64,000 bases of DNA from Astropecten irregularis (Eukaryota > Echinodermata > Asteroidea > Paxillosida > Astropectinidae). Below, in pieces: positions 30,646 to 64,000 of this stretch. A program made the translations under genes and the position numbers. The notes beneath the pieces were generated by a model, which searched no databases, was not told the DNA's origin, and saw only the letters and a list, made by a program, of their open reading frames with translations. The first letter of the stretch is position 1. Every line of letters begins with the position of its first letter. The stretch spans positions 24,201,873 to 24,265,872 of the forward strand of contig OZ020248.1 of the NCBI GenBank assembly GCA_963971285.1, read 5' to 3'.

Positions 30646-33600
30646 TTAGACATGTTTTTGGTAAAAGCAGTAAAAAAGTTTGTGGTTATTGTAGTTCCCG
30701 GTGTCGCACGGATGACTCCCTTCCTCGTAGTCTTGGTTGTTATCATCTTCGTTATCCCAGCGAAACCACTCGAGTGTGACGTACATACCATATACCTCCT
30801 GACACTGCTTGGTGTAGGCGAAGAGATAGAACGGTCTGCTTGTTGGCAAGATGATCGGATAAGACGTCTTACCTCCGGTCATGCAGCAGTAGTTGATGAG
30901 AGTGTCATTGTCGTAAACTCCCGATGGCACGGTGCCATTGACTGTGTTACGATTGTCGTCGTCCTCGTCATCCCAGAATATGGATCCGGTTAACATACCT
31001 GAAGGAAATGTATACGAGATCCGAAAATACAGTTCTTTTTAAAGTTTTTTTTTCAAGTTGAAGGATGATGCCAACCATGTTCTTTTTAACAAAAGAAATT
31101 CAACCATAAAAAAAAAGAGTAAAATTACAACCATTAACATTACACAAAATCAGTGAATAAGCCGCGTATACATACCGTTTGGGCAGTTGTCTCCATACTT
31201 GAACACGCAGTATTTGCCATTGGGCCAGTTTCCACCATTATCACCAAGATGGTCTACCGTCTTCATGCAGAAGTGCTGCCACATGTCATTCTTTCCAAAC
31301 GGACCCTTGAAATTAATACTGGCTGACCAGTCGTTACTGGGGTTGTATTCTTCCGTGTCTTGGTAACGGTATCCGGTTTCCCAGGTAAAACCGGTGTCAT
31401 TCGGGCAACCACCAATCGGCATCGGTAAACCGTAGGCACCAAAGGGCCAAATGGTTTCCACTGTGGTATTTTGGTAATAGCAGAAACGAAGTTTGTGGCC
31501 TTGGTAGGTCCGGGCACGGTACGGATGACTCCCGTTCATGCGGTCTTGGTTGTTATCATCTTCGTTATGCCAGCGAAACCACTCGAGTGAGGCGGTCATG
31601 CCATACACCTGCTGACAACGTTTACGGTAGTCGAAGAGATAGAACGGTCTGCTTGTTGGCAAGGTGATCGGATGGGATAGGACACCGTTGGTCATGCAGC
31701 AGTAGTTGATGAGAGTGTCATGGTCGTACACTCCCGATGGCACGGTGCCATTGACTGTGTTACGGTTGTCGTCGTTTTCGTCATCCCAAAATATGGATCC
31801 GGTTGACATGCCTAAGCAAAAGCCACCAAATTAGATCATTAATTCATTGGTCTTGAGAGCTGTCAGCTTTGCGGAAGATTGAAATCATGTTAATGTAATA
31901 TAGAAATAAAACATTAATGAGTGATTGAAGCAAAAATAAATTATTACACCTACCGTTTGGGCAGTTGTCTCCATACTTGAACACGCAGTATTGGCCATTT
32001 GGCCAGTTTGCATCATTATCACCAACACGGTCTACCGTCTTCATGCAGAAGTGCTGCCACATGTCATTCTCTCCATACGGACCCTTGAAATGAGGACTCT
32101 GTGACCAGTCGTTATCCGGGTCGTCGTTTTCCGTGTCGTGGAAACGGTTACCAGTTTGCCAGGTAAAACTGGCATCATTTGGGCAACCGCTGATTGGCAT
32201 CGGTAAACCGTAGGCACCAAAGGGCCAAGTGATTTCTACTGTAGTATTTTGGTAATAGCAGTAATGCAGTTTACGGCGGTCTTTCCGTTCTGAAGTGTAA
32301 GGATGGCTCCCGTCTTCGGTGTATTGGTTGTTATCATCTTCGTTATCCCATCGAAACCACTCGCGTCTGACGGTCATGCCATACACCTCCTGACACTGGT
32401 CGGTGTAGGCGAAGAGATAGAACGGTCTGCTTGTTGGCAAGGTGATCGGATCGGATGTCATACCACCGGTCATGCAGCAGTATTTGACGAGAGTGTCATG
32501 GTCATATACTCCCGATGGCACGGTGCCATTTAGTGTGTTACGATTGTCATTATTCTCGTCGTCCCAGAATATGGATCCGGTTGACATACCTGAGGAAAAG
32601 GCAACAGATTAGAAAGTTCAGTTGTTTTGAAGGCATTTATTTCAGCTTTACGGGTCTTTAAGTTAGAAAATAACAATAAACAATAACAAAAGGCAGAAAT
32701 CGTTTCACAGTAGTGCGCCACCATGGGTTTGCAACGCGTTTGCCAATTTGTCGACAAACTGTGCGCATCTTTCCACATGCGCAGTTTGTCGGCAAAATTA
32801 ATTCCTCGCATTGTGATTGGCCAACGCGTTGCATGCAAACTCGTATATAGAGGCGCAATATTGTGAATCGCCCGGTATTTATTACACGTACCGTTTGGGC
32901 AGTTGTCTCCATACTTGAACACGCAGTATTGACCATTTGGCCAGTTTGCATCATTATCACCAACACGGTCTACCGTCTTCATGCAGAAGTGTTGCTCCAT
33001 GTCATTCTCTCCATACGGACCCTTGAAATGAGGACTGTCTGACCAGTCGTTTCTAGGGTTGTCGTTTTCCGTGTCTTGGTAGCGGTAACCGGTTTCCCAG
33101 ATGAAACCGGCGTCATTCGGGCAACCAGAGATCGGCATCGGTAAACCGTATGTCCCCAAAGGCCAACTGGTTTCTAATACAATATTTCAGGGAAAAGAGA
33201 AAGACAAACTGAACTTGGCATAAACCTTCGGCAAAAACCTCAAATGGTAGATATTCTCCACCGAGCCAACCGTTATCATGAAAAGTCAGAGAAGTTGGGA
33301 CTTCTGTTGCACAGTTATGGAACTGGAAGCAACCTACAAGGTAGTAAGAGATATAATTTAGAATAACACATTCTTACCTTTGCGTGTTACATTTGGCAGG
33401 AGGTCAATCTTTTTTTCACTAGAACAACCGACAGTCTGTAAATTAAAAGAAAATTAATAATCTGAAAATTAATACGTTTTTTCTTCAATCGTCAACTGTA
33501 TTATTTCTTTAAGACCTAGTAAAACGTGTATTGAAAACAGATGAGAGTTTGCCAATGGTGTTATTGGTGTATCAAAAAATGCGAAGTTTCATATACGCAT

Positions 33601-35176
33601 GCGTGATAGCCGTCGGCGAGTCCCCACACGCGTCATCACCAATGCAAATTAGGTAATGACGTGATCACCTTTTTACAAAAATGTCTTTGGCGCCGGCTCA
33701 AAATCGGCAAATTTGTGGTCCTATTTCCGGGATAGGAAATCCTTAAATTGTTTTGGTTCTTATTATCTAAGAATTGGAAAACTGTTCAAATAGTCATTCA
33801 TGAGGAAAAAATCGATATTTCTCTATTCGTTTTACTAGGTCTTTAAAAGTTTCCTGTGACAACATTTGGGAAAGGGATGAAAGTGCTTTAAAATGGTTGC
33901 TTAAAGGTAAATTGTTAGCATACCGAAACAGAAATCTTCACATTTTTACCTATAATCTACAGGGTATAAAGATGGTTTTGCTAGAAACATACCGTTAAAA
34001 CTCTTCTGCCTGAAATGTTGTATTTATCCAGAAAAGAGTTAAACTAATGACCAAAAACTATTTTGATCTTTAAAAAGATAAAAAACAAGGTTGAAAAGAT
34101 AAAAAAAGAACATGAAATTTCCACAAATGACAGTTACTGTATCTTCTGTAATATTTTTGCCCATGAATCTGCATTTCTGTGACAAAAACCAAAGTATGGA
34201 ATTACCTTTAATGCATATTTAATTACTTTATAGATTTAAATTATTATGTACATGTTAGTGCTTTATTTTGACCCAAAAGTTGAAAATTAGAACATGAATG
34301 CCCCGCCCATGCCCCGCCCATGCCCCGCCCTTCCCCCAAAATCCCCCCTGAACCGATCCACGGAACAATGCTTGTGACGTCACATACAGAACAAGACAGG
34401 CTTGAACCGATGTAGCTCATGCTGGCTCACGCACATTCAATATAAGATTTTGCTCTTTGATTTGAACAAAAACGCGGGGTCGGCAGGTTTGCGACTTGTA
34501 TACCTTTTGGCGTTCTGCTTGTGATGTACCGAGATTTTTCGTCGCGAAAAATGAGGTACTTAATTATGGGTCTAAAACACGCCCCTTTTTACATAATATA
34601 TTGTTTATCACAAACAATGATAGACATGTTGAGTTTGATACCAATACAGATGTATTTGTATCAAATGAGTTTTGATTACAATAAACCTTTAACTTTCGTC
34701 CAATGTGACGTTAGCTATTCTTTTCATAACTCGTTTGTGATGACTCCAGGTAATTTAATGGTTTCAGAATTGATTTTATAAGTATTGGCTATAACGTTTT
34801 GTATAAGCAAACCTACCTGTATCTGCGAGTACGTGTACACCCAGCCATGCCCTTGCTTCAAATCATCAGTGTAGTCGTAGTGGGTAGCGTTGTTCAAATC
34901 ACACTGTCCATTACTGGACGCGAAATTGACAGAAATACAGTGCGGTTGAGCCTTGCATGTGTTCCAGCATTGCTTGTGGTTCTTAGCTATGGTGGTGTTG
35001 TACATGTGCCCTATCAATGCAAAATCAACGATGCCGCACCAAGCTATTGCAGACTTGGTACCGAAGCCACCCAAGTCATAGGTAGCCATGCTACCACCAA
35101 CAATAATAATCATGATTAGAGAAATCAGCCAACGACCAACAGCCACACCAGGCATTGCGAACAACTCCACAGCCAT
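30646..35176 (-). CDS. PAN-ApeC gene 1: secreted protein with three ApeC domains
   Basis: Six exons (minus strand order): 34817-35176, 33378-33435, 32892-33173, 31954-32589, 31176-31811, 30646-30998. They join in frame into 774 residues. Exon 1 has a hydrophobic signal (RWLISLIMIIIVGG, about residues 15-28) and a PAN/apple-like region with cysteines 47, 70, 74, 80 and 92. Exon 2 (TVGC...NVTRK) adds a sixth cysteine and a linker. The rest is three ApeC (apextrin C-terminal) domains, at about 143-346, 355-558 and 567-770. Each runs from WP-G-YGLPMP-GCP through HFKGPYG, QHFCMKT and WPNGQYCVFKYG, then FWDDE, YCCMT, PFYLF and EWFRWD to YCYY. ApeC proteins studied in amphioxus bind bacterial peptidoglycan, so secreted microbial recognition is likely by family, not shown here. 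I start at MAVEL because gene 4 lacks the upstream ATG present in genes 1 and 2. No obvious polyadenylation signal was seen. Confidence 0.88.
32700..32880. repeat. Fold-back insertion in gene 1 intron 3
   Basis: Contains TTTGCAACGCGTTTGCCAA and the partly inverted GGCCAACGCGTTGCATGCAAA, and ends near GAATCGCCCGG. Related sequence lies at 51985-52095 and 61100-61232, again next to ApeC exons. Confidence 0.55.
33901..34210. mobile_element. MITE-like family, reverse orientation
   Basis: Begins TTAAAGGTAA and ends AACCAAAGTATGGAATTACC, with TTTATCCAGAAAAGAGT and GCCCATGAATCTGCATTTC as reverse-strand versions of the words in 9531-9893. It lies in intron 1 of ApeC gene 1. Confidence 0.65.
34297..34336. 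repeat. Three-copy ATGCCCCGCCC tandem repeat
   Basis: GCCCCGCCCAT occurs twice, followed by a third GCCCCGCCC, in intron 1 of ApeC gene 1. Confidence 0.8.
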
Positions 35177-35751
35177 GCTGCTGCTTCTGTGATCTCGACG
35201 AAAATGGCAGCCGCTCAAAACTCGTTAAATTCGAAGCAGCCTAAATTTCTCTTCAGATTGGCGATTTGCGGAGTAAGACGAACTAGCCGTTGCCTGGCGA
35301 CTAATCAAAATAAACCTTGAGTGGGTCTTTTCGGCATACACACAACGCACAGGCGTTTCAGCGCTCTGCCAAGACAATAATCACATCATTTACGCTCTAC
35401 CGTTTCAGATAATTGTTCCAGAGCGGTGTTGGCCCAAATGGCATGAAAACGACATATTCCTGTATGATTATTATGACGAGAAAAATACTTCAACCCGTTG
35501 AAGGGAGGGAAATATCATAAACTGCAGATTTTATTTTAGGTGATTAAGATTGTTTCTGATGTAGCATTCCCTCGAAGTATTTTTCCTTGTGTTCTTCATT
35601 TTGTTTGTGGAGGGTTGGGTTGGGTAGGAGTACAGCGAAAATGTATAATGTCTCAGGGACATTTCATCGAAATGTAGCAAAATGATTGTAAAAAAAGCAG
35701 ATTGAATTTCGCTATTTTCTCATGATTCAATGCGTTTATCGTTTGAACAAA

Positions 35752-35865
35752 GCGACGGCGAGGTAAGGCGAGGCGAAGCGACGTCAGCTGAGCCAAGTCA
35801 AGGGCAGCCAAGGCAGTGTATGGGAAGGCTAGGTGAGGTGAGGCTGGGTGAGGCGAGGCGGGCCT
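35752..35865. repeat. GAGGC/GAGGT pentanucleotide array
   Basis: Degenerate AGGCG and AGGTG words upstream of gene 1. A shorter GAGGC run is at 37028-37055. Confidence 0.75.
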
Positions 35866-35957
35866 AAGTCCTGTGAATCAAAATACTACCTTTAAGATGT
35901 CTACGCAATGTGACATATCGCACTCATATCACATCACCACTTACACAACTTTTCAAA

Positions 35958-36542: not shown

Positions 36543-36679
36543 AGTGTCACGAAATAATAACCAGCCGCTAGTTTTTGTCAATTACTGAATTTTTTACCGC
36601 ATCATAATGACGAGAAATGTTATTTCATACGACTAATCGACAAAACATCTATTTGGAGGTAAATTTTCAAATAGAATAT

Positions 36680-37560: not shown

Positions 37561-38069
37561 TTGAAGGGATGGCAAAATCATAACCTACAGGTTTTCCCGA
37601 AGTTTGTAGTCTCATCCGGATTTTATATTCTGATTTTACCTCTCCTCAAAATACCCTTCCGTTTGATTATGCATTATTTGCTGTGGAGTGTTGGGCTGGG
37701 TAAGAGTACAGTTAAAAAGGTTATTTAACATCTGAAATCTCATCGATATGTGAGCCAAATGATTGTAAAACGCACGATGAATTACGCTTCTTTGCTATGA
37801 TTCAATTTACGATTGAGATGGAAATTTCCACAGATAGGAGGCGTGAGGCAAGGCAAGGCAGAGTCCTGTGAATCATACTCGTTCTTTCGCGGTGATGAAT
37901 ATTATAGTGTGACATATCGCAGTCGCAGAGTTTTTTTTATGATGTAACCTTTCCTCAAAATGCTCTTTTTGTTTTTAATTTTTCGTGGAGAATTAGGCTG
38001 GGTAAAAAAGTACTTAAAAAAGATAATCATAAAACATCTGAAATATATGTCTTCGACATGTGAGCACGG

Positions 38070-38322
38070 CCCCGCCCTTCCCTGCCCTGCCCTGCCCTGC
38101 CCTGCCCCGCCCCGCCCTGCCCTGCCCTGCCCTGCCATGCCCTGCCCCGCCCTGTACTGCCCTGCCCTGCCCTGCCCTGCTCTGCCCTGCCCTGCCCTGC
38201 TCTGCCCTGCCCTGCCCTGCCCTGCCCCGCCCTGTACTGCCATGCCCCGCCCTGTAATGCCCTGCCCCGTCCCGCCCCGTCCCGCCCGACCCAGCACCGC
38301 CCCGCCCTGCCCCGCATGCATC
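38070..38322. repeat. CCCTG pentanucleotide array
   Basis: About 250 bp of CCCTG with CCCCG, CTCTG and CATGC variants, at the junction between the two duplicated ApeC blocks. Long open frames here in several phases on both strands are artefacts of the repeat. Confidence 0.95.
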
Positions 38323-39986
38323 CAAAACCGCGAATACTAAATTGAAAACAGAAAACAGTAATGATCAATAGAAACATGAAGATTTCCATCAAATATTGTG
38401 TGAATTTTATTTAAACCTTCGATTGACATTGACAGCGTGTAACGTTGGATTACTACCGTTCTTGGGTGTGGTCACAGTATTAAAAAGGAACTTTCTTTAG
38501 GGCAAGGGTAAATGTGACGTTGCTGAAGTCACACGATGTAATAGCCCAATTTGTTCGTTCCAGGAGCCTTTTCCTTAACATCGGAATTTTCTAAAAAACT
38601 ATTATTTTCCACTCATTGGTCTTCCATGTGAAATGTTTCTTTTCAGGCAGTAAGTGCTTACTTGGAGTCTTGGCCAAACTACCTGTGTCTGGATCTAGAT
38701 TGTGGTTTCCTTCTTAATGTTTTGTCTGATATTTGATATTTATTTTTATAATTTTTTTTCATGCTTTTGTAAGTTTATTAGCTTAAAATTAAGTGCACCG
38801 CGTAATATTATTGCAAAGCCAAGTGCGACGTGAAAATAAATGAAATCTTCATCTAATGTTGGTCTTCTAACCAAGGTAAGCTCTACCATTAGGTTCGTAC
38901 TGTCGTAAGCATGAAACTATCATTGTAAATTAATTAAATCGAAAAACTATCTAAACATTTCAAATAACCACAAGATAAACCGAGTGAGTAAAAAATTAAG
39001 TCAAAATACGTGAGATAAGTTTTTAAAACACGAGCGGGTGTCATCTAAATTTCATTACTGCATAATTTATGGGCAATTCCACTCTACAACTCTTCCACTC
39101 TTCCACTTCCACTTACGTTACATTTTAAGCAACTTTGACTTTTATCTTAATTATTCTTGAAGGACTCCAATTCAGAAATGTGTTATTGGAATCAGCAAGT
39201 ATACCGCTTAAGATTCCTTAAAATGCTTGCAAACACGCCAAAAAAGGTAACTTACGTTACAAAATAGACACTAAACCATCGCAATGCCAATATTATGCTT
39301 TGATAACTAGTTATCAAAATTCCACAAAAAATATTCAAGAAAAGACTATGCTTATAATGTATCATCTTTATACTGAATTTGGACTGTAATAAGAAATATA
39401 TCATAATTGAGTTCATAATTATTATTAATGATGTGCCTATAGTATAAAATGTGTACGTCCCTTCAAATCAATGACTTTGTTTTGTGGTGGACATAAAGTT
39501 GGTTAAATGTAGCAATAAAGAAGAATGAAAATGAATCATTATCAATTAACGAGGCGAAAGCTAATATTTAAAACAAATTTTCAAATAATTTTTAAAGCAA
39601 AGTAATTATTGACCACATTAATAAGGCTTTATAACATTACAATTGCGTAAGCGTCGGCAGTAATATACAAGACTTCATTACAATAATTAACAGCAAGTAG
39701 TCCTTCCTCTCTCCATTACAATATTTAAGATGACTGCAATTTAATTAGCTGCATTGTTTTGAAGTTTTGAATTGCAAATATGAATTCAATCCCGAACAGA
39801 AGTTATCTAATTCTTGAGCACAGCCAACTCACGAAAATAAGAATGGATCTCAAATGCGCTCAGCATTTGTTGTAGTTGTAAATTCTCTATTTTTTCCGAA
39901 ACATAATTACATCGATGCCGATTTTTAGCCCAATCCGTAAATTTTCAATTAAATCTCGAAATGAACAGCATCAACAGTTTCGAAAT

Positions 39987-42900
39987 TTATTTAGTAATTT
40001 GGTAATAGCAGTAATAAAGTTTGTGTCCATGATATTCCCAGTTGCCGAACGGATAACTCCCTTCCCCGTGGTCGTTGCCATCTTCGCAATCCCAGCGAAA
40101 CCACTCGAGTGTGACGGCCATGCCAAGCACCTCCTGACACTGGTCGGTGTGGGGGAAGAGATAGAACGGTCTGCTTGTTGGCAAGATGATCGGATCGGAT
40201 GTCATACCACCGGTCATGCAGCAGTAGTTGATGAGAGTGTCATGGTTGTATACTCCCAATGGCACGGTGCCATTGACTGTGTTACGATTGTCGTCGTTCT
40301 CGTCATCCCAGTTTATGGATCCGATTGACATACCTGAAGAAAAGGTACGAGACCGAAAAATACAGTCCTCTTTAAAAGGATTTATTTCAAGTTTGAGGAT
40401 GATCCAGCCATGTTCTTTTAAAGACAAAAAGTATTTCAACAAAATAAAACAGGGAAAATCATTACCAAAATCACACAAAATCACCGAAACAATAAATGTA
40501 TACGTACCGTTTGGGCAGTTGTCTCCATACATGAACACACAGTATTCACCTCGGGGCCAGTTTGCATCATTATCACCAACAAGGTCTACCGTCTTCATGC
40601 AGAAGTGCTGCCACATGTCATTCTTTCCACATGGACCCTTCAAATGCAGACTGTCTGACCAGTAGTTACCGGGGTCGTAGTTTTCTGTGTCGTGGAAACG
40701 GCTACCAGTTTCCCAGGTTAAACCGGCGTCATTCGGGCAACCGCTAACTGGCATCGGTAAACCGTAGGTACCAACGGGCCAATTGGATTCCACTGTGGTG
40801 TTTTGGTAAAAGCAGTAATGAAGTTTGTGTCCATGATAGTCCCAGTCGCCGAACGGATAACTCCCTTCCCCGTGGTCGTTGCCATCTTCGCAATCCCAGC
40901 GAAACCACTCGAGTGTGACGGCCATGCCAAGCACCTCCTGACACTGGTCGGTGTGGGGGAAGAGATAGAACGGTCTGCTTGTTGGCAAGATGATCGGATC
41001 GGATGTCATACCACCGGTCATGCAGCAGTAGTTGATGAGAGTGTCGTGGTCGTATACTCCCGATGGCACGGTGCCATTGACTGTGTTCTGATTGTCGTCG
41101 TCCTCGTCATCCCAGAATATGGATACATTTGACATTCCTGAAGTAAAAGAGGCAATTTAGACTTGAACATACTACAACTTGAAGTATACTTCGACTGAAA
41201 AGTTTCTGTGGTTCAAAACACTCCTCGAAGAAAAACATAAACAGTACGGTGAAACTATAATCGATGTGATAACCTCGTTTACAATCAAATCAATTCATTG
41301 AAAATCGTCTGCGCAAGTAACATGGCACCGAGTAGATTAGCAGCTGCAAGAATATTTGCACGAGTATGCAGTATAATTTATAAGAACTGCGTCCACAATA
41401 CCAGGATATTGAAGCTCTCGAATAGATATATATAGCCTACTTACCGTTTGGGCAGTTGTCTCCATACTTGAACACGCAGTATTGGCCATTGGGCCAATTT
41501 GCATCATTATCACCAACACGGTCTACCGTCTTCATGCAGAAGTGCTGCTCCATGTCATTCTTTCCATACGGACCCTTGAAATGAGGACTGTCAGACCAGC
41601 TGTTGATCGGTCCGTTGTCTTCCGTGTCGTGGAAACGGCTACCACTTTTCCAGGTAAAACCGGCGTCATTCGGGCAACCGCCAATCGGCATCGGTAAACC
41701 ATAGGTCCCCAAAGGCCAAGTGGTTTCTACTGCAATATTTCAGAAAAAAAAACAATAAAGAAAACGTGAAGTTGGCATAGACCTTCGGCAAAACCTTTGG
41801 GAGAAGTCTCAACCGAGTCAACCGTTTTATAGACCTTTCTTGTATTTACAACCATTGGTGGTCAAATGTTGCAATTCATTTCAGCTTTACCACAGACGGC
41901 GTGACCAAATTCAACATTTTTGCAACTGCTTTCCATAGCTGTGCAAACTACAAATGCCACCACTGCTTGTGTTGTTTCCATTACATTCAAAAATACATCT
42001 TTCAATGTTTATGCAACGTTGTGTACAAATTGTAGTAATTTTTTTTTATATGTTAAGACTTCTGTTGCAGTCAAGGTAGGGATACAGAAGGTACTCAGGG
42101 ACAAAGAAAAACACTACGTACCTTTGCGTGTTACATTTGGCAAGGGGTTCATCGTCTTTTCACCAGAGCAACCGACGGTCTGTAAATTAACAAAAAAATA
42201 TAATCCGATATAAAATCCCCTTTTCTTCATTTGTCAACTTCATTATTGCTTAAATTTGTTTTTTTTTTAAGGTGTTGATCATTTGTTCTTTGTTCTTTTC
42301 ATCATTTCATCACGTTTGTAATAGGCACGATTCTCACACACCAAAAAGCGCGACTATTTGGGTCGCACTCCAAAATAGTCGCGCTTTTTGTTGTGTTCCC
42401 ACAGCCAAAAAGCGTGACCCAAATCGTGCTGTATGATTTCTATCAAACTGCCCGTGCGCAGTGAAGCGTGAAGTTGGCATGCATCCTGCGCTAAACTCGC
42501 GCCTTGCATGATGGGATATAAAAAACCGGTATATTTTTGGTGCAACGTTCACACAGCAAATAATCGCGATAATTTGCAAAAAGACGCACTATAAGTGCGA
42601 TTTGGAGCGCGCTCCAAATCGCACTAATAGTCGCGATTATTTGTGTCCCCACACAAATAAGAGCGACTATTTGGGTCGCGCTCCTAAATAGTCGCGCTTT
42701 TTTGGTGTGTGAGAACGTGCCTTAGACTCCATGTACTTAAATGGTCTAAGAATTGATTTAATAAGTATTGGCCAACGTTGTGTATAAGCCAATTAACCTA
42801 CCTGTATCTGCGAGTACGTGTACACCGAGCCACGCCTTTGCTTCAAATCATCAGTGTAGTCGTAGTGGGTAGCGTTGTTCAAATCACACTGTCCATTACT

Positions 42901-43161
42901 GGACGCGAAATTGATAGAAATACAGTGCGGTTGAGCCTTGCATGTGTTCCAGCATTGCTTGTGGTTCTTAGCTATGGTGGTGTTGTACATGTGCCCCGTC
43001 AATGCAAAATCAACGATGCCACACCAAGCTAATGCAGACTTGGTACCGAAGCCACCCAAGTCATAGGTAGCCATGCTACCACCAACAATAATAATCATGA
43101 TTAGAGAAATCAGCCAACGACCAACAGCCACACTAGGCATTGCGAACAACTCCACAGCCAT
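39987..43161 (-). CDS. PAN-ApeC gene 2: secreted protein with two ApeC domains
   Basis: Five exons (minus strand order): 42802-43161, 42122-42179, 41445-41729, 40508-41137, 39987-40333. They join in frame into 559 residues. Signal peptide, PAN-like region with cysteines 47, 70, 74, 80 and 92, and exon 2 (TVGCSGEKT) with the sixth cysteine are as in gene 1. ApeC domains lie at about 144-345 and 354-556. The intron between exons 4 and 5 stays open in frame, so a naive translation runs through it, but donor (CG|GTACGT) and acceptor (CTTCAG|GT) match the other genes. The two C-terminal ApeC halves are identical over 198 bases. The last codons read ITK-stop, with an AATAAA overlapping the stop codon. 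Compared with gene 1 one internal long exon is missing, giving one domain fewer. Confidence 0.88.
42323..42724. repeat. Fold-back element with AGGCACGATTCTCAC / GAGAACGTGCCT ends
   Basis: Inverted ends flank several short palindromes built of CGCGACTATTTGGGTCGC words. It lies in intron 1 of ApeC gene 2. Confidence 0.75.
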
Positions 43162-46720: not shown

Positions 46721-47109
46721 AAGGAAAATGCATAGCAAAGCTTAAATATGATGAATATATTCCTATATGATAATCGTGTCGGAAAAAAATTATGGTAAAA
46801 CAACAAATGCAGATTTACTTGATGTTTGTAGATTATCTAGGTTTTTTTTCTGAGCTAACCTATCCCCAATATACTCTTATTTGTTGTTTTCCATTTTAGA
46901 GTTCATGTACATCTGAAAATATCCTTAAAACAGCTTAAATTAATTTCTTCGAAATTTGTGCAAAATGATTGTAAAATGCATACTGAATTTCGCTACTTTG
47001 ACATGATTCAATTGAGGAATTGGGACACATAATTTTGATCGCACAAAGTATGATTCCTGTATTTGTTTTTTACCTAGACCCTTTCTATGTTTGTGTGGTT
47101 TCAACAATG

Positions 47110-47375
47110 CCAAGGCACCGAGGCAATAAGGCAAGGGAATGCGATGTGAGGCGAGGCGAGTGGTAGAAGGCAAGACAAACCAATTAAGGCATAATGAGGG
47201 AAAGCGAAGTGAGCCGAGGCAGTCCGGTCCGGTCCGGTACGGTCCTGGCCGGGTCAGGCCGAGCCGAGCTGAGCCGAGCCGAGCCGAGCCGTGGCGAGTG
47301 GAGTTGAGTTGACTCGAGTCGTGTCTTGTCGTGTCGAGTCGAGTCGAGTCGAGTCGAGTCGAGTCGAGTCGAGCT
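47110..47375. repeat. GAGTC/GAGCC pentanucleotide array
   Basis: GAGCCGAGCC words pass into GAGTCGAGTC repeated about eight times near 47333-47372. It marks the right edge of the duplicated ApeC gene 2 block. Confidence 0.85.
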
Positions 47376-47770
47376 GAGCAAATTGTATTTGAGAAAGTAC
47401 AAAATACCGCCCTTGCTGTGGGGGCACAGAATATGTCGTTAATGTGCGCGAAAACGTATTTTAAGCACGTGGTCTCGTTTGTAAAAGAATGGGCCAATAT
47501 TCGATCATCGGGGAAAAATAAAACCGCTTTCTTTTTTTTGCGCGACATAATGAATTATTATCTTCATAATGTTCTGGAAATGTTAAATTTTTAAAGCAGT
47601 CGGCAAGGAAACACACACATTTTTTATTCACTATATGAATATTTTATTAACTCACATCTTGTATACATAATTGTTTTGATTGCCATTAAACGTTCGTTGT
47701 GCCATTGATTCTTCATTAATTTTGTTTTAGAATTAGTATAGTTTCACCAGTAAATGATTTTACTTATCAG

Positions 47771-49332: not shown

Positions 49333-51783
49333 ATGATCGATTGACAGATCAATCGTTTGATCGATCTATTCGATCAACATTTTCGTTTCTTCAATTTTAT
49401 TTACGATCGACCACCAGGTCTAGGCACCGATACTTTCGTAGTAGCAGTAATAGACACAATTTTTGTTTGAGTTCGTACGTGGGTGATTGCCCTCCACGTA
49501 GTCTTGGTTGTTATTATCTTCGTCATCCCAGAGAAACCACTCGAGTGTGACGGTCATGCCATATACCTCTTGGCACTGGTCGGTGTAGGCGAAGAGATAG
49601 AACGGTCTGCTTGTTGGCAAGGTGATCGGATCGGATGTCATACCACCGGCCATGCAGCAGTAGTTGATGAGAGTGTCTTGGTCGTATACCCCCGATGGCA
49701 CGGTGCCATTGACCGTGTTACCATTGTCGTTGTTCTCGGCCTCCCAGAATACGGACCCAGACTCCATACCTTAAGAAAAAGTCATAAAATAATGCGCTTT
49801 TTAAGCTTGGATTCATCAGCGACAACTACGTTGCGGGTAAAGCACTGAATGATACACGGCAGTTATTGCGCCTGCGCAATGACACCCACGTCTGAACAAC
49901 CTCTGCTGGCCAGCTATGGACCGTTTCGTGGCCGGATATATGACAAATGCTTTGTGGGGCAGTTTTCGCAAAAATCTTAGGACAAATAATCCCGTAGACT
50001 AACGGTCCGCAAAATTATCTTCTTTTTTTCTAGCTATATTAGTACAATGTGAGAAACAAAAAGGTCTTTGGGAATTTGACGATCCTGTAATTTATCGTGA
50101 TGTATCGTTTAAGTGTGATTGTATATTTACAACACCAATTAAAAGAAATATTTTCCTTATCTTGCGAACCTGTCGCAACTTTTTCAATGTCTACATGTAG
50201 AAAACGCAGCCCGATAAATGCCTCCAGAAGACAGAGTGTTTGTCTGGTTTAATAAAAAGACGTTTCCACACAGTTTACAACACCTGTAATATTTCCCGCA
50301 AAATGGCATACCTGCATAGTGTTCTCCCTACCCCTCCGTTTGATAGCCTCCACGCACCCAAGTACGACCCAAACCTATGGCTTCATATAAAATGGGAATG
50401 TTTTATTGGTACCCGTCTGTTGAACTCCTAAAGTTACCTCTTAACCAAATCAAAAACAGCCTCAGCTCGCACTGAACAAGGTATTACTATACGTACCGTT
50501 TGGGCAGTTGTCTCCATACTTGAACACGCAGTATTGGCCATTGGGCCAGTTTGCATCATTATCACCAACACGGTCTACCGTCTTCATGCAGAAGTGCTGC
50601 CACATGTCATTCTCTCCATACGGACCCTTCAAGTGCAGACTGTCTGACCAGTCGTGACTAGGGTTGTCGTTTTCCGTGTCGTGGTAACGGTAACCGGTTT
50701 CCCAGGTAAAACCGCCGTCATTAGGGCTACCGCCAATCGGCATCGGTAAACCGTACACGCCGTCGGGCCAAGTGGATTCATCTGTAGAATTTTGGTAAAA
50801 GCAGAAATGCAGTTGGTGGCCATAATATTGCAAAGTGTAGGGATGGGCCCCGTTCTTGTGGTCTTGGTTGTTATGATATTCGTTATCCCAACGAAACCAC
50901 TCGAGTGTGACGGTCATGCCATATACCTCCTGACACTGGTCGGTGTAGGGGAAGAGATAGAACGGTCTGCTTGTTGGCAAGATGATCGGATCGGATGTCA
51001 TACCACCGGTCATGCAGCAGTAGTTGATGAGAGTGTCATGGTTGTATACGCCCGATGGCACGGTGCCATTGACTGTGTTACGGTTGTTGTTGTTCTCGAC
51101 ATCCCAAAATATAAATCCGGTGGACATACCTATCAAAAAAGTAACGAAAACTATTTGGTTGAAACGTGTTAAAAATGTTTTAACACGGCAAGGGAAAGGC
51201 TCCGTTGAAAGGTAATAAAAGTAAATATAAATATAATATGATCTCTAAGCTTATCAAATATGGATGTCCGTTCAGGTGTTCATTTGCATTACTCCTCCAC
51301 TAAATCTTTACACTACAAGGAAAACAGTTTTCTTTAACACGAAAGGTGAACAGAAATCCGTGAATCCACTGTTAGTGTATTCGTACCTTTTGGGCAGTTG
51401 TCTCCATACTATATTTGCCATTGGGCCAGTTTGCATCATTATCACCAACACGGTCTACCGTCTTCATGCAGAAGTGCTGCCACATGTCATTCTTTCCATA
51501 CGGACCCTTCAAATGCAGACTGTTTGACCAGTCGTTTTTAGGGTCGTAGTTTTCCGTATCTTGGTAACGGTAACCGGTTTCCCAGGTAAACCCTGCGTCA
51601 TTCGGGCAACCACCAATTGGCATCGGTAAACCGTAGGTCCCCACTGGCCAAATGGATCCCACTGTGAAGGAAAAAGTAAAATAACGAGATTGGACGTCAG
51701 TTTCTCCGTAAGGATTTCAGGAATGGTGTGGTTTTTTTCTAGCCACCAGCCTCATAGTTCCGGCTACACAGAACCTGCCCGAT

Positions 51784-51895
51784 TCGTCTCTTGGTAACGG
51801 TAACCGGTTTTTCAGGGAAAACCTGCGTCATTTGGGCGACCAATTATTGGCATCGGTAAACCGTTAACTCCCAACGGCCAACTGTAGTAGCAAGA
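51784..51895 (-). pseudogene. Partial ApeC N-terminal half exon
   Basis: A decayed copy of exon 3, next to the exon 3 of gene 3. On the minus strand it gives CCGTTGGGAGTTAACGGTTT, CCGATGCCAATAATTGG and CCGGTTACCGTTACCAAGAG in the exon's order, then degenerates. Its 3' half and donor are absent. Confidence 0.75.
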
Positions 51896-51984
51896 CGAAG
51901 AGGAAATATTATTATACGACTTTTACATCCTCCTATATATTATTTCGTTATGGGTCCGGTTCCAACTATTCGGGCGATTCCAAT

Positions 51985-52095
51985 GAGAGCACCATTATGA
52001 GAATGAAACGCGTTTGCCGATCACAACCGAGGAGTTAACACTGTGTTGGCAAACGCGTTGCAAACTCAAAATAGCGCACTATAATGGAGTCGCCC
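51985..52095. repeat. Fold-back insertion beside gene 3 exon 3
   Basis: AAACGCGTTTGCC and GGCAAACGCGTTGCAAAC lie in inverted order, followed by GGAGTCGCCCGATTT. Same family as 32700-32880. Confidence 0.5.
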
Positions 52096-52352
52096 GATTT
52101 ACGTAGCGTATATTGGGTCGTCCGAACGTAACTGGAATGCACAAATGCACATGCGCATGGTGTCCCTGTGTAAAACGGAAAGTTTTAGTCCATTCCAGCT
52201 TGTGTTGAAAGGATATACCAACGTCGTGGCATGGCTCTTCACAGTGTAGCATAGCATGAAGGCGCCTTTCCATATATGCGTTTTTTCATCCGCTGCGTAT
52301 ACGCTGCGTGTAGTTATTTTTATTTTTACCATTTTGGACACACCCAAAATAA

Positions 52353-52440
52353 GGCTGGATTATAAAGCGCTAGTACGGCGTTCCTGGATTGGGGGGATCA
52401 AATCCCGCATCAGTAAATTGGTCCAATACTTATCTATGAC
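52353..52440 (+). repeat. Decayed tRNA-derived SINE
   Basis: GGCTGGATTATAAAGCGCTAG followed by GGGGATCAAATCCCGCATCAG recalls the head and B box of the SINE at 60661. It lies in intron 2 of gene 3. Confidence 0.35.
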
Positions 52441-54594
52441 ATGAATAGATAAATTGTAAAAATTCAATTTGCGGAGCTTGGCAAAATGGAGTTTTACCAC
52501 AAAGTATAATGTGCCTTCCAAGCAAACCCCAAACGCACAACATACCATAGTCCCTTGGTATTGCACTGTACGACGTGTACAAGTAAGAGTGTTATCTTTC
52601 GTGTGGGTAACCTGTATATTCTGCAAGAAGCAATGAGCCAGTGTGGCTGACAACTGGCGTATATATAGTATACTAAAAGAAAAATTTGCTTACCGCTTAT
52701 AGGTTCGGTTGGTGGAGAGCGCATCGTCACATCCCAAGTTCTGTGGAATTACAAACATCAACATGTAACTTTCAGCAAGAAATTGAAATACTGCTTTACA
52801 TTGAAATACTGCATAGCGCTAAAATTGACAGAGTTTTAGTGCTCTTTAATATGCAGATCTTTTTTCTTTTTTTTTTAGGTTTTGTTCGTTTTATTTTGTT
52901 TTATTAACCTTTTGTGTATGTGTATACATACAGCCACGCCCTTGCCAAACCGACCTGCAATATCCAATAAAAAACGAATATACACATGAGGTTAAAAACT
53001 TAAAAACTCTACTCCCAGGACTAACTCACTGATCCGCTTTAATCGATTTATCGATTGATCGGTGACGTAACGTCACCACAATCGAACGGCCGCTTACATA
53101 AGCCTCGTTGAGGCCATCTCACGACCTCTTTTAGGATCCGAGTTGGGATCACCGCAGTGATCTTCAATGAGGATCATATGATCCTCCGCCCTAAAACAGG
53201 GTCAAATGCAAAGATAGCACTACTGTGAGTTACCTGTATCTGCGAGTACGTGTACACCCAGCCACGCCCTTTCTTCAAATCATCAGTGTAGTCGTAGTGG
53301 GTAGCGTTGTTCAAATCACACTGTCCATTACTGGACGCGAAATTGACAGAAATACAGTGCGGTTGAGCCTTGCATGTGTTCCAGCATTGCTTGTGGTTCT
53401 TAGCTATGGTGGTGTTGTACATGTGCCCTATCAATGTAAAATCAACGATGCCGCACCAAGCTAATGCAGACTTGGTACCGAAGCCACCCAAGGTACCCAT
53501 GCTACCACCAACAATACTAATCATGATTAGAGAAATCAGCCAACGACCAACAGCCACACCAGGCATTGCGAACAACTCCACAGCCATACTGCTGCTTCTG
53601 TGATCTAGAGGAAAATGGCGTCGATCGCCAAGGAGAGGTTAGTTATAGTATCAACGTGCATGTGTCAATCAGCTTGGGATCAATAAAATATGGCAACAGG
53701 TAGGCCCTAACACAAGCCACCAGTGTGTAAGTGATTTGCTCTGCCAGAAATAGAAACAGCATGCACCGACCGTGAAATGAACCGAAGACACAGGACTGCA
53801 CTCCAATATTGATCGAGTTCCAACAGCAATTTCAAAAGAGTACGGCGTGTCGATCAATTGCGTTAAAGGTGCAGTCCATCGTTGTTGGTCTTCCTTTTGG
53901 CATGGAAGCCTCCATTCCCGCGTTTATTTTGCACATCACAACACCGTGACATGTGTAGATAAAACTGTTTCTACATCCTTCGCCATACAAAAAAAAAATA
54001 AGTTGCAGTGGTTGCAGTATCTACATACTGTTATACAGATTTCTTAATGGTAGCTGCGTATAAATGATAAACAATTTTGATAAATATAATTCATTCATTC
54101 ATTTATTCATAAATGGTAAGATTGCACACAAAAATGAACGATCCTTTGGTCGTTAACAGTGTCAATACAGTACCTTTAAGACACGAAAGCGCTGTGTTGC
54201 TGAAATTCCAGTTTGGCTAAAAATACCTTGATTCTCGCATTTTTCATTGATCACTGACCTGTGATGAAATACATATTTTTGGGATTTATTTCAGTCAAAA
54301 TATAAGGGAAGTGCCCCTTACTGCATGGTGAGCCAGTGTCTCTCATTATTGTTTTTAATGATGACATACTGCGCTGCCCATCATATAGGCATTTATCACC
54401 CTTTTTAACAGCCATGCATTGAAATATCTCACTGATGTCCATGGTAAATAATTTATAAACATTACTCTGATTCGCATGTACATAAATACACCATCAGACA
54501 CGTGCTGATCCAGTGATTTTCAATTTCGTGTTCTGTCCAGGCTAAAATGATATTAAAAAAGAAGTGGTTATATTCATTAAAACGCCGTATCCTC

Positions 54595-54845: not shown

Positions 54846-54850
54846 CTTCA

Positions 54851-58720: not shown

Positions 58721-58891
58721 CTTGGGTTCCTCGTAGTCTTCAATCTTCTTAAATAAAGTCTTTTAGAATGCAACCTAATAACCTCGTTTTTCTGCATGAT
58801 TATTTTCCTAGTTACCATTGGTAACACATCCAAAACAAATGTCTACGCCAGTGGCTCCCTCGTGTATCTTAAAGATTGGAGTTTACTGCCT

Positions 58892-58906
58892 CCAATTGGT
58901 ATATAA
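58892..58906 (+). promoter_or_regulatory. Putative core promoter of ApeC gene 4 (CCAAT and TATATAA)
   Basis: CCAAT at 58892-58896 is followed by TATATAA at 58900-58906, 56 bases before the ATG. The sequence just downstream (AACTAACCTCTCCTTGGCG) also occurs upstream of gene 3 on the minus strand (about 53620-53650), where the TATA-like word is ACTATAA. Motif placement only. Confidence 0.4.
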
Positions 58907-58961
58907 CTAACCTCTCCTTGGCGTTCGACGCCATTTTCGTCGAGATCACAGAAGCAGCAGT

Positions 58962-61900
58962 ATGGCTGTGGAGTTGTTCGCGATGCCTGGTGTGGCTGTT
59001 GGTCGTTGGCTGATTTCTCTAATCATGATTATTATTGTTGGTGGTAGCATGGCTACCTATGACTTGGGTGGCTTCGGTACCAAGTCTGCAATAGCTTGGT
59101 GTGGCATCGTTGATTTTGCATTGACAGGGCACATGTACAACACCACCATAGCTAAGAACCACAAGCAATGCTGGAACACATGCAAGGCTCAACCGCACTG
59201 TATTTCTGTCAATTTCGCGTCCAGTAATGGACAGTGTGATTTGAACAACGCTACCCACTACGACTACACTGATGATTTGAAGCAAGGGAGTGGCTGGGTG
59301 TACACGTACTCACAAATACAGGTACGTTCTCGACCTCATGCATTATTCTGCCTTTTGTATTGAAAAGTGCATGTTGGTTTGGCATTGGCATGGATGTGTG
59401 TATATATAGGTACTCGCAAGCCCAGGTAAAACTTTCCTATTATAAACTGTAGGGGCGATTGTTTCTAAGCAAGCTCACAGGACAGTGGGCAATGTGAGAC
59501 GTAAATGCTTGCAATATTTAAACTCTCGGTCGTAAGATCGACTCTCGCTCCTGCCAATTTGTCTTTGTTCATTTAAAATTAACCGGGATTAACGTAAAAT
59601 TAATCCCGACAGTTTCCCTTTATTTGACAATCTCAAAACCAAAAGACTTTGGGCAATCATCATTAATTCTTTGGCCATCGTTCAATCTGTTACCAAGTTG
59701 AAAAAAAAAAGATTCAGCGGCCGATTTCATAAAGCTGTGCGACGCGTCGCAACTCGATTTGCGACGCGTCCTAGCTGCGACGCGTCGCATCTATGCGGTG
59801 AGTCCATAGAGAAAGGATGCGTCTTAACTCTGCAACGCGTCGTAAGTTTTATGAAATCGGCCCCTGGTCATCCCATCCTGTCTTAAATTTAGTGGTATCT
59901 TTATTTATAAAATCTAATATACTATTGTAAGTTAAGCCCATTAAGCATGTCTATAAATCGTACACCTGTACGTTAGCTTGTACATACGGTGAGCCTTTAT
60001 CAAACCTGATGTATTTTCCCAATAAAGCAGAGTGTGCACCGTCAATATTTCCGGTAACATTCTCGGTAACATGTTGACCTTGGGCCAATTTCATAGACCT
60101 ACTTAGCACAAACAATTGCTTAGCACAAAAATAGCTTGCCCAATAAAACAAACCATCATTGAAAATTCCATTTAACACTCATGGTCAGCAAACAACAGGC
60201 AAAGAACAATTGCAAGTGATACAAAACACACGGAAATTTGGTTGTTAATCCTGTTTTTTCTAAGACAGAGATGTCATGCTTAGCGAATTTGTGGGCTAAG
60301 CAGCTCTATGAAATTGGCCCCAGGTATACATGTACGTTGTTGCTGAAAATGTTGTCAGTGTACACATAGCAAAGCGAGTTGGGTAACAAGTCGCCCATGC
60401 AACTGTCGCTCAGACGAAAGATTTGAAATGCATTTACTTCGCTGACATGTTGCCGATACTTTGATGTGGTTATTTCACGAATGTATTAATTAAAAAGCCG
60501 TATCCTCTTTGAGTGATGCCCCATGTACCGTTCCCAGGTTGCAGCATTGTTGCGTGTATCATTGAAACGATCCCTGGGGTGTGACGGTGTGTGCGTGGTT
60601 TCATGGCTTCTGACTGCCAAACGAACAAAGATAGTTGACTATTGGGGTCACCACCAACATAGGGCTGGATGGCTCAGTTGGTAGAGCGCATGTACGGTAC
60701 TCAGGAGGTCGCCGGTTCGAATCCCGCTCCAGTCAATTTTTCTTTATTCACCTTTTAATGACTTAAAAACTCAGTCAGTTTCCCTTGTGGTTATTTCACG
60801 AATGTTTTGTAATTTCACAGAACTTTGGATGTCGAATGCCGAGGCGCTCTGGACCAAACGAACCGATTAAAGGTACGTTACTCCCGTTGTTGACCGCCCG
60901 ACTGGAGCCTAGCTTCTTGCAGCATGTACCCACGAAAGATAATAACCGTGCACGTCATGCAGTGCCATACATAGGCACTGTAGTTAAATTAATTATATGT
61001 GGTTTGCTTGAAAGGCACATTATACGTTTGGCTGAAACCTTTGATGAGCTGTATACCTTTCCACACAAGCTGGAATAGACTTAACATTTCACACAAAACT
61101 AGATGGGAAAATGGCGTCAGAAAACGCATAGTGCACCGCTCTGTTTGTCGACAAAATTAATTCTGCGTATTGTGATTGACCGACTTGTTGCACGCTCATG
61201 GTCATGCACTATTTGGAGTCGCCCGAATAGAGGGACCTGGGGCCGATTTCACTAACGCTTTGCGATCATCGCTAAGCCCAAATCCATCGCTAAACGGAAA
61301 ATTGATCGCTACTTTGTGTAGGATTTTTCTGTTTAGCGATGGATTTGGGCTTAGCGATGATCGCAAAGCGTTAGTGAAATCGGCCCCTGATCATGAACCC
61401 ATGATCTAAAAACGAAAATAAGACAATACAAAACAAAATAACGACCATTTGCATTGTGTATCGCTTTCTCCCTCTTAATACTACAGTGGAAGGCCGTTGG
61501 CCGTTGGGAGTTTACGGTTTACCGATGCCAATAAGCGGTTGCCCGAATGACGCTGGTTTTACCTGGGAAACCGGTTACCGTTACCACGACACGGAAAACA
61601 GTGGACCGAGCAACAGCTGGTCTGGCAGTCCTCATTTCAAGGGTCCGTATGGAAAGAATGACACGTGGCAGCACTTCTGCATGAAGACGGTAGACCGTGT
61701 TGGTGATAATGATGTAAACTGGCCCAATGGCAAATACTGCGTGTTCAAGTGTGGAAGCAACTGCCCAAATGGTACGTAATTTTAAAGTGAGCTTCCTCCA
61801 TGATTTCACGAATTTCTCTTAGGCTTTGGTGTTAAAAGAAGCACATTTTTGTTCGATGCAAATACCAGTGGTAGAGTAATACGTGTACACATAAAACCCC

Positions 61901-64000
61901 AAATGGACTTCATTTTACATGATAAGCTAGCATTAAATTATATCTAATAAGCTAAAGGAAGCAGATAGAGGCAAGCATATACCTTTATCTGCTACCGAAC
62001 GAGCCTTCCCTTGCCGTGTGACAACATCGAGAGATGAATATAGAAAAACAAAAACAAAATAGAAAAACAAAGGAAAAAAAATGATTGAAGCACGATTCGT
62101 GCCAGCGAATATCGCACCAAGGGTCGCTTGTTCGAATCCTGCTCCTGTCTTTGTTCACTTTGGAGCACTGTGGAGTGCTGTCGCCTAGTGGTCTGGCCTA
62201 GTGGTCTGGCGTGTTGAACTCGAAGTCTTGTGGTCAATCTACAGATCGTGGGTTCGAATCCAGCCACATGTTAATGGCGCTTGCGTCCTTGGGCAAGACG
62301 TTTTGTCACACATGGTTTCAGGAATGTTAATTATGGCCCGATGACCAGGGATAATAACAAAGTTGTAATGCGCAGTAGAGTATATTCATATACATGTAGT
62401 AGCTGCGCAATATAAATGTCCTAAATTACTAGGTGTTCGGGTTCAAGCCGAACACCTATTGTTATTGTTCGATTTTTTTTCTCCTTCCGCTCAAACTTGT
62501 CAGTAGGACTTCTTGGTGATAAGTACAAGATATTGAGTTGAAACTTGGTGGGAACTTTGGTCATGATGTCAAGTTGTATTTAGAAGATTGACGTCATGAT
62601 GACGTCATCGGGTATCAAATTACACGCGTTTTTAGGAAAACCTTTGGTGCTTTATAACTTGAGAACCACATGACCTATGATTTTGATATTGACAATTAAT
62701 ATATTCAGTGTTGTGTACAAATGACCTTCACTTCCGGGATTTGGGCACATAAAACATATTTGGCTAAAATAAAGATGTCTTGGGCTTTCAGAAAATATAA
62801 AAGATGACGTCATGCGAGCTATATAGCGCCCTCTACGGTTGGTTAAAGATATGCAGTGATTACGTAATCCGAAAGTAAACAATGGATTTATGCCAAATTT
62901 GGTATGTGTGAAGCACTTATGCACCTTGACATGTTTGCAAAATTTGAAATCTGTGACATTATTTCACCGGAAGTTATGCTCTTTTACAGAGAAAAATACG
63001 TAATTAATCAAATGCCATTTACTCGGTAATTATGTACATTTATGAAAATTGCAAAAAAAATTACATCGTACGCATTGAATGACCTCTTTTAACTTTCAGT
63101 TCGTTGTGATGAACTAACCGGAAGTTATAGTCAATGCAATATTGCATTTATTTAAAGGTGACGCATATGAACAGTATATGTAACATGTGTGTACAACAGT
63201 GTCATTCCCATTGCAAAAATAACATGTACATTACATCTGTGAGGGACTATTGGTCACACACGTTCCAACATATGTTCACATCACAGTTCCACCACGAAAT
63301 AAGACTCCGAACACCTAGTGGTTGTTCACACAGCCACGTGTCTAGTTATTATTATTATTATTATTATCTTATCAAATCAGTTTTCCTCGTGATATTTGAT
63401 GATTAAAAAAATTTTGTTACTTTTTCGATAGTTATGTCAACCGGATCCATATTTTGGGATGACGAGAACAACGACAATCGTAACACAGTCAATGGCACCG
63501 TGCCATCGGGAGTATACGACAATGACACTCTCATCAACTACTGCTGCATGACCAATGGCTCGACATCCGATCCGATCTTCTTGCCAACAAGCAGACCGTT
63601 CTATCTCTTCGCCTACACCGACCAGTGTCAGGAGGTGTATGGCATGACCGTCACACTCGAGTGGTTTTACTGGGATGACGAAGATGTTAACAACCAAGAC
63701 CGCAAGTATGGGAGTCATCCTTATGATACCGGATACTACAACCGATACATCCAGGAATGGGACGATGACGTCGTGTACTACCATGATCACAGACTGGTAT
63801 ACTGCTATTACCAAAACGCCACAGGGGAATCCACTTGGCCCTACGGTGCCTACGGTTTACCGATGGCAATTGCAGGTTGTCCGAATGACGCCGGCTTTAC
63901 CTGGGAAACCGGTTACCGTTACCACGCCATGGGAAAATTCAACACCAGTAATGACTGGTCAGACAGTCTGCATTTCAAGGGTCCGTATGGAAAGAATGAC
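58962..64000 (+). CDS. PAN-ApeC gene 4, 3'-truncated by the window edge
   Basis: Exons 58962-59321, 60821-60872, 61487-61771 and 63432 to beyond 64000, in frame for 422 residues. Signal peptide and PAN cysteines 47, 70, 74, 80 and 92 match genes 1 and 2. Exon 2 encodes NFGCRMPRRSGPNEPIK and supplies the sixth cysteine in a quite different linker. ApeC 1 runs from about residue 142 to 359, and ApeC 2 has begun and is cut at GPYGKND. The C-terminal half of ApeC 1 carries about 14 extra residues, including EWDDDVVYYHDH, between the GSHPY motif and the closing YCYY, which the other genes lack. At least one more exon must follow to complete ApeC 2. All visible splice sites are canonical and there is no disruption. 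The gene is on the opposite strand from genes 1-3. Confidence 0.87.
59719..59874. repeat. Fold-back element, GGGGCCGATTTCAT / GCGACGCG type
   Basis: Starts CGGCCGATTTCATAAAGC and ends TTTTATGAAATCGGCCCC, a complete copy of the element truncated at 2914-3044. It lies in intron 1 of gene 4. Confidence 0.85.
60082..60321. repeat. Fold-back element, GGGGCCAATTTCAT family
   Basis: Begins GGGCCAATTTCATAGACC and ends CTATGAAATTGGCCCC, with the interior as in 7833-8071. It lies in intron 1 of gene 4. Confidence 0.8.
60494..60770 (+). repeat. SINE-bearing repeat, copy 2
   Basis: The tRNA-like head GGATGGCTCAGTTGGTAGAG and B box GGTTCGAATCCCGCTCC lie within a unit that also occurs at 54595-54845. Here the tRNA-like part is the best preserved of the window. 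Lack of a closed acceptor stem speaks against a functional tRNA. Confidence 0.65.
61100..61232. repeat. Fold-back insertion in gene 4 intron 2
   Basis: AAACGCATAGTGCACCGC, GTCGACAAAATTAATTC, TTGTTGCACGCTCATGG and GGAGTCGCCCGAA correspond to parts of the repeat in 32700-32880. Confidence 0.5.
61239..61387. repeat. Perfect 57-bp inverted repeat (fold-back element)
   Basis: Arms 61239-61295 and 61331-61387 are exact reverse complements around a loop of about 35 bases. Ends are GGGGCCGATTTCACTAACGC and its inverse. It lies in intron 2 of gene 4, 100 bases before exon 3. Confidence 0.95.
62163..62360 (+). repeat. tRNA-like SINE, second type
   Basis: GTCGCCTAGTGGTCTGGC (partly doubled), GTGGGTTCGAATCCAGCC, GCGCTTGCGTCCTTGGGCAA and GATGACCAGGGATAA follow in the same order as at 5851-6300. 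It lies in intron 3 of gene 4. Confidence 0.6.
62428..63319. mobile_element. Element with 13-bp ACTAGGTGTTCGG inverted ends
   Basis: ACTAGGTGTTCGG at 62428-62440 and its exact inverse CCGAACACCTAGT at 63307-63319. The left end forms a hairpin with the AACACCT that follows at once (62431-62457). The 890-bp interior has no convincing coding frame but several ATGACGTCAT words. Non-autonomous transposon-like, superfamily unknown. It lies in intron 3 of gene 4. Confidence 0.55.
63345..63368. repeat. (TTA)n microsatellite
   Basis: Eight TTA-type units shortly before exon 4 of ApeC gene 4. Confidence 0.85.

Follow-up and report, generated by a model that had tools for sequence, protein, structure and literature searches.

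The region C11:24.2325-24.3117 Mb of the sea star Astropecten irregularis holds eight related genes (G1-G8) in approximately 79 kb, each combining a PAN module with serial ApeC domains, and seven of them yield intact models. The window, a stretch of 64,000 nucleotides (C11:24201873-24265872), takes in all of G1-G3 and the beginning of G4, which is interrupted by the window end; four genes (G5-G8) lie past its right edge and were covered by joining the window to its flanking DNA (153 kb in all, from a genome of 475.7 Mb in 168 contigs). The minus strand encodes G1-G3 and the plus strand G4-G8; the number of ApeC domains from G1 to G8, as determined by tblastn, is 3, 2, 2, 3, 4, 4, 4 and 5, which gives 27 domains. 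An initial annotation of the window had described a cluster of four genes with two or three ApeC domains per protein. Four such genes are indeed present at 30646-64000 (three minus, one plus) and the domain count is true of them, but the array really comprises eight genes with up to five domains; the changing domain number to which that annotation drew attention extends over the whole array (2-5 ApeC). Throughout the 153 kb, besides one ApeC relic within G3, nothing outside the eight genes matched the seeds at E values up to 1e-3.

Gene models and domain content of the array

The genes follow a common plan. Exon 1 (354-360 nt) encodes the signal peptide and the PAN module with five cysteines, and exon 2, which carries the sixth PAN cysteine, is 58 nt long in six genes, 52 nt in G4 and 47 nt in G3. 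These are followed by an exon encoding the N-half of ApeC 1, by one to four fused exons that join the C-half of ApeC k to the N-half of ApeC k+1, and by a last exon with the final ApeC C-half and the stop codon. The seven models are open across 559-1202 residues. Of their 39 introns, 38 are GT-AG and one, in G5, is GC-AG; the junction after exon 1 is in phase 0 and all later ones are in phase 1. The exon ends were set from sequence to satisfy GT/AG and phase, and the models are in this respect consistent rather than independently proven. The features of the four window genes, in window numbering and with the supporting evidence in brackets, are as follows.

34817..35176, minus: G1 exon 1, signal peptide and PAN with five cysteines (tblastn, spliced model, Pfam)
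33378..33435, minus: G1 exon 2, 58 nt, sixth PAN cysteine, phase 0 to 1 (spliced model)
32892..33173, minus: G1 exon 3, ApeC 1 N-half (ApeC profile match, spliced model)
31954..32589, minus: G1 exon 4, ApeC 1 C-half and ApeC 2 N-half (ApeC profile match, spliced model, fused-exon search)
31176..31811, minus: G1 exon 5, ApeC 2 C-half and ApeC 3 N-half (ApeC profile match, spliced model, fused-exon search)
30646..30998, minus: G1 exon 6, ApeC 3 C-half and stop (ApeC profile match, spliced model)
42802..43161, minus: G2 exon 1, signal peptide and PAN (tblastn, spliced model, Pfam)
42122..42179, minus: G2 exon 2, 58 nt (spliced model)
41445..41729, minus: G2 exon 3, ApeC 1 N-half (spliced model)
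40508..41137, minus: G2 exon 4, ApeC 1 C-half and ApeC 2 N-half (spliced model, fused-exon search)
39987..40333, minus: G2 exon 5, ApeC 2 C-half and stop (spliced model)
53234..53587, minus: exon 1 of the broken gene G3, signal peptide and PAN (tblastn, spliced model)
52694..52740, minus: G3 second exon, 47 nt, out of frame relative to that of G4 (spliced model)
51779..51880, minus: relic of an ApeC N-half in a G3 intron (tblastn, 65% over 34 aa)
51405..51665, minus: G3 ApeC 1 N-half, its frame shifted near the end by a 10-nt deletion (sequence comparison)
50497..51129, minus: G3 fused exon, ApeC 1 C-half and ApeC 2 N-half (spliced model, fused-exon search)
49420..49769, minus: G3 last exon, ApeC 2 C-half and stop (spliced model)
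58962..59321, plus: G4 exon 1, signal peptide and PAN (tblastn, spliced model, Pfam)
60821..60872, plus: G4 exon 2, 52 nt, sixth PAN cysteine (spliced model)
61487..61771, plus: G4 exon 3, ApeC 1 N-half (spliced model)
63432..64000, plus: G4 exon 4, ApeC 1 C-half and ApeC 2 N-half, continuing to 64109 past the window, with two further exons to the gene end at 68832 (tblastn, spliced model, fused-exon search)

Spliced unaltered, G3 (49420-53587) gives a model with 24 stops. Its frame is disrupted at two places, as the second exon falls 5 nt short of its G4 counterpart and 10 nt are missing from the ApeC 1 N-half in comparison with G1 and G4. Barring an assembly error at that place, G3 is probably a pseudogene.

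Scanning the full spliced models of G1, G2 and G4 against Pfam (hmmscan), as proposed in the initial annotation, placed ApeC (PF16977) far above its cut-off, with E values of 8e-218, 9e-138 and 4e-209 over 3, 2 and 3 stretches and scores of 457-719 bits against 26.5. PAN_1 (PF00024) was modestly above its cut-off of 21.4 bits in the same models and in the start of G8 (25.7-28.2 bits overall, 25.7-26.2 in the first three), and a sequence differing from G7 at two residues scored 28.5 bits. In the remaining array genes, ApeC was found by a half-domain search of the genome. The six-cysteine PAN-like module described earlier is true of the three intact window models, and the architecture as a whole (signal peptide, PAN, serial ApeC) is supported by Pfam, tblastn and the spliced models. 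MACPF gave no match in the full models of G1, G2 and G4, the three scanned out of eight genes.

Eight cysteine columns are invariant across 25/25 ApeC domains that the seven intact genes encode (the G3 pair being excluded), and eight conserved cysteines are the published hallmark of ApeC in the cited parts of PMC8361754 and PMC9585378. A loose scan for D-x-[ED]-[DN], after the three DXED motifs of the ACPs (the family of ApeC proteins), gave hits around positions 30, 100 and 172 in many domains, though not in every one. In a simple hydropathy scan of the seven intact models, strong hydrophobicity was confined to the N-terminus (19-residue mean 1.8-2.1, versus 1.06 or less later), and nothing after the signal peptide resembled a membrane anchor. 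The proteins are predicted to be secreted by way of a signal peptide, without an evident membrane anchor. A phmmer search of solved structures with a single ApeC domain returned no convincing relative (best E 0.7), and for PAN it returned nothing beyond weak matches to factor XI apple domains (best E 0.058).

Growth of the array and the uniform first exon

In G7 and G8, the number of ApeC domains rose by tandem duplication. Within G8, two copies of a 1,480-bp stretch (104731-106207 and 105925-107392 in window numbering) are 91% identical, and a 729-bp repeat in G7 shows the same identity; intron sequence is part of both. A tree of 36 C-halves (27 from the array and 9 from outside it) recovered sisters within single genes, namely G2.1/G2.2 (100/99), G7.2/G7.3 (99/95) and G8.1/G8.2 (100/99), together with pairs across genes by position, G5.2/G6.2 (98/94) and G5.4/G6.4 (99/89). 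The split between the 27 array rows and the 9 outside rows had no more than moderate support (88/67), and many other forks are open. Since within-gene sisters and positional pairs occur together, both domain duplication and gene duplication have taken place. Together with the tandem repeats, this supports the expansion that the initial annotation had proposed. In the other array genes, ApeC copy number may likewise grow by tandem duplication of the phase 1-1 exon in which the C-half of an ApeC is joined to the N-half of its successor. A shared history of C-half k and N-half k+1 had been expected, and the correlation was r = 0.18 (p 0.09, 18 pairs), versus 0.00 for the halves of one domain in 25 domains; among five same-exon comparisons, one, between the loop and the first half of the next N-half, reached p 0.03 uncorrected. 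This co-inheritance test is uninformative because the N-half has no internal signal (odd versus even codons, r = -0.08).

The first exon differs from the rest of the gene in its uniformity. Its nucleotide identity is 96.8% over the eight genes and its synonymous divergence (dS) is 0.06, as compared with 0.26 for the ApeC framework (25 domains) and a rough 0.70 for exon 2 (six genes, 57 nt each). The dS of the PAN exon (0.013-0.114) was below the closest ApeC-framework dS (0.142-0.23) in 21/21 intact-gene pairs and below that of exon 2 in 15/15 pairs compared (G3 and G4 left out). Over the eight genes, identity per 40-column block is 0.91-1.0 inside exon 1, 0.84 just upstream of the ATG, less than 0.55 further up and 0.56 or less beyond the 3' end of the exon. 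Elsewhere in the genome, a second subfamily, dispersed over C10:2.6-6.3 Mb (L028-L032), has five PAN exons that are 96-98% identical, most of them far apart. The ApeC halves of seven C10 loci are 80-93% identical; these loci are largely other than the PAN set, and the difference is a trend rather than a matched test.

Gene conversion, or a recent spread of exon 1, would keep the PAN exon uniform. Alternatively, the uniformity could stem from direct purifying selection, including selection on synonymous sites and on transcription or splicing signals, an explanation to which we give appreciable weight, though short of even. The sharp drop of identity at both edges of exon 1 and the similarly high identity of the dispersed C10 exons are in its favour. 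On the other hand, dN (nonsynonymous divergence) and dS are lowered proportionally, with dN/dS at 0.44 in PAN and 0.42 in the ApeC framework, a pattern more in keeping with conversion or a recent shared origin than with coding constraint. These observations do not tell apart constraint, conversion and recent exon spread as causes. Across all segments tried, dN/dS ranged from 0.2 to 0.6 (simple counting method). ApeC variation is highest in about the last 60 alignment columns, a C-terminal loop that is also variable in length.

The two halves of ApeC, separated by a conserved intron, are partly collinear (for example, 31174-31467 versus 31468-31812, minus strand). The likeness was noticed post hoc, in a MAFFT alignment that overlaid N-halves on C-halves, and comparison of the two with hhalign gave P values of 0.007 (global) and 0.017 (local) at a probability of 2-3%. 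The local score was not significant against column shuffles, which reached it in 16/300 and 28/500 cases. The global score was reached by 0/500 column shuffles, 0/103 rotations, 0/300 shuffles of the first 70 columns and 0/1 reversal, and by 4/300 block shuffles. With the statistics mixed, an internal duplication within ApeC is possible as a weak lead.

Related loci and neighbouring features

ApeC and PAN are not restricted to the array. A genome-wide Pfam search gave at least 162 ApeC half-domain matches (best 150 of 208 candidates scored), and at least 12 PAN relatives lie outside the array at E < 1e-20 (best 150 of 375 candidates scored). Three loci (L036, L038 and L039) pair a PAN exon with one downstream ApeC that is divided into halves at the boundary used in the array genes; a fourth (L037) has the same plan, with the last ApeC half beyond the end of the stretch read. 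In contrast to the array genes with their 2-5 ApeC domains, the first three have one ApeC per locus read, without a fused C+N exon. When the fused exon was used as a query, a junction-spanning match was obtained in 19/150 scored places (best 150 of 206 candidates), 19/19 of them within the array, and 54 C-half matches fell on other contigs (hand count); such a search is blind to serial-ApeC genes that retain an intron between domains. A search for prokaryotic and viral relatives of ApeC, based on a five-row alignment, gave pattern matches in genome_contigs (9 stretches) and viral_contigs (22), none of which was confirmed. Because the reach of this method is limited, the outcome is not in conflict with the published distant bacterial homologues of ApeC.

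Approximately 14 kb from the array, window 13892-16597 (plus strand) holds an open frame of 902 residues whose translation combines numerous leucine-rich repeats with a TIR domain and which, by its sequence, is a Toll-like receptor gene contained in one open frame. Between G1 and G2, a low-complexity tandem repeat (window 37902-38410) is open in several frames with G/A/Q/R-rich translations, and between G2 and G3 a short tandem repeat (window 46940-47554) translates to runs of 'RLDST'. COX1 matches were found on other contigs. The mitochondrial one, on contig C168, accompanies a COX2 frame, and the frame lying between the two was taken by eye to be ND4L. Under the echinoderm code (table 9), but not under table 5, its COX1 has the familiar start 'STNHKDIGTLY'. 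This code and gene order are marks of echinoderms, and the mitochondrial COX1 thus supports an echinoderm source. The match at C25:9951047-9952018 (L035), on a larger contig, has seven TGA codons and is probably a nuclear copy of mitochondrial DNA. A further match, at C131:32162-33484 (L033), differs from the mitochondrial copy in having a 552-residue frame that the standard code reads without interruption, and C131 is perhaps a bacterial symbiont or contaminant contig.

Proposed role and relation to known ApeC proteins

The array would, with somewhat better than even probability, encode soluble, multivalent ACPs that bind microbial cell-wall peptidoglycan through ApeC, share PAN as a common module and have grown by exon duplication. 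The ApeC domains would bind peptidoglycan, and the secreted proteins would agglutinate or coat microbes. The number of ApeC domains would set valency, several in one secreted chain being expected to raise avidity, while the near-constant PAN may serve an interaction common to all, for instance assembly or docking, and the variable C-terminal loop of each ApeC may tune the choice of ligand. We infer the recognition role from the single-ApeC (short-form) ACPs of amphioxus and molluscs, for which peptidoglycan binding and bacterial agglutination are reported (PMC9585378, PMC8361754); neither killing nor inhibition of growth was seen with them. The literature drawn on for this role further comprises PMC12373286, PMC7333891, PMC8878817 and PMC10855680.

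Several points weigh against this interpretation. The transfer of ligand is uncertain because the published binding concerns single-ApeC proteins and, according to the cited part of PMC8361754, there are no ACP orthologues between phyla. AlphaFold2 yielded no confident ApeC fold, with a confidence (pLDDT) of 32 for a fused C+N exon with 4 relatives and 28 for the G2 N-half, read-through intron and C-half with 6 N-halves. Diversifying selection was looked for, and dN/dS was below 1 in each segment, as was the proportion of nonsynonymous relative to synonymous differences (pN < pS) in each block; positive selection on the variable loop is not supported by either measure. Moreover, pS varies from 0.08 to 0.66 per 15-codon block along ApeC, and mutation, codon constraint and conversion are therefore not separated; the high dS of the variable loop may partly reflect misalignment.

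A more far-reaching version, which we hold tentatively and regard as rather doubtful in its entirety, would see in these genes a constant/variable recognition family. A near-invariant PAN head, maintained by conversion or recent exon spread, would be placed on many genes, and an ApeC tail would change in number via tandem duplication of the domain-straddling exon, so that individuals may differ in valency and loop sets; ApeC itself may additionally consist of two ancient repeats of ~95 residues with a conserved intron at their boundary.

The main rival to microbial recognition is a matrix or adhesive role, in which serial ApeC and PAN would cross-link host glycans of the egg coat, cuticle, mucus or an adhesive secretion. 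Apextrin, the founding member, is secreted as a protein of the apical matrix and has a proposed part in cell adhesion of the sea urchin embryo (PMC8361754), limpet pedal adhesive mucus contains a protein with ApeC among its domains (PMC7333891), and the seven intact models are cysteine-rich, with acidic residues outnumbering basic ones in all seven. Arrays of changing domain number are nevertheless more usual in recognition than in structural families, and the ACPs tested experimentally in the published accounts cited (amphioxus ACP1/2/3/5, oyster CgACP1 and snail BgACP1) bind microbes; we consider the matrix or adhesive role less likely. A relaxed, decaying array, in which unequal crossing-over produced the variation in copy number and loops as a neutral side effect and few genes are functional, would account for the broken frame and ApeC relic of G3 and for dN/dS above 1 in no segment, but is very improbable given that 7/8 models keep an open frame and a consistent phase through 559-1202 aa and that dN/dS of 0.2-0.6 and eight cysteines in 25/25 domains point to purifying selection.

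The array proteins have several known counterparts. The initial annotation held ApeC to occur usually once per protein, which needs qualifying, as dual-ApeC proteins form mollusc ACP group 6 and are also reported from Cnidaria, Tardigrada, Echinodermata and Platyhelminthes (PMC9585378). These share serial ApeC with the array, where G2 and the broken G3 have exactly two; the array differs in having PAN in front, 2-5 ApeC domains (3-5 in six genes) and eight genes in one array. The short-form ACPs resemble the array proteins in their signal peptide, ApeC, eight cysteines and secretion, but have one ApeC each and, in the cited parts of their descriptions, no mention of PAN (amphioxus ACP5 adds CUB); their binding has been shown by experiment. 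Among the papers that the literature searches covered, none pairs ApeC with PAN, although the survey cited for the dual-ApeC type of echinoderms (Li et al. 2021, Mol Phylogenet Evol 155:107009) may list such a combination. Apextrin itself, first known from sea urchin, combines MACPF with a C-terminal ApeC, a likeness to the array confined to the latter, as MACPF is missing from the full models of G1, G2 and G4. The sea urchin SpTransformer genes encode a protein family other than that of the ApeC/PAN array. They offer an analogy only, as echinoderm immune genes that are clustered, carry repeats within the coding exon and show putative local instability (PMC10887614).

ApeC is a little-studied, lectin-like domain of invertebrates, the binding of which has, in the published work cited, been tested on single-ApeC proteins. 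An array in which valency ranges from 2 to 5 through visible exon duplication, behind a near-constant N-terminal module, would allow a direct test of how domain number and loops affect microbe binding, and of whether individuals differ in their arrays.

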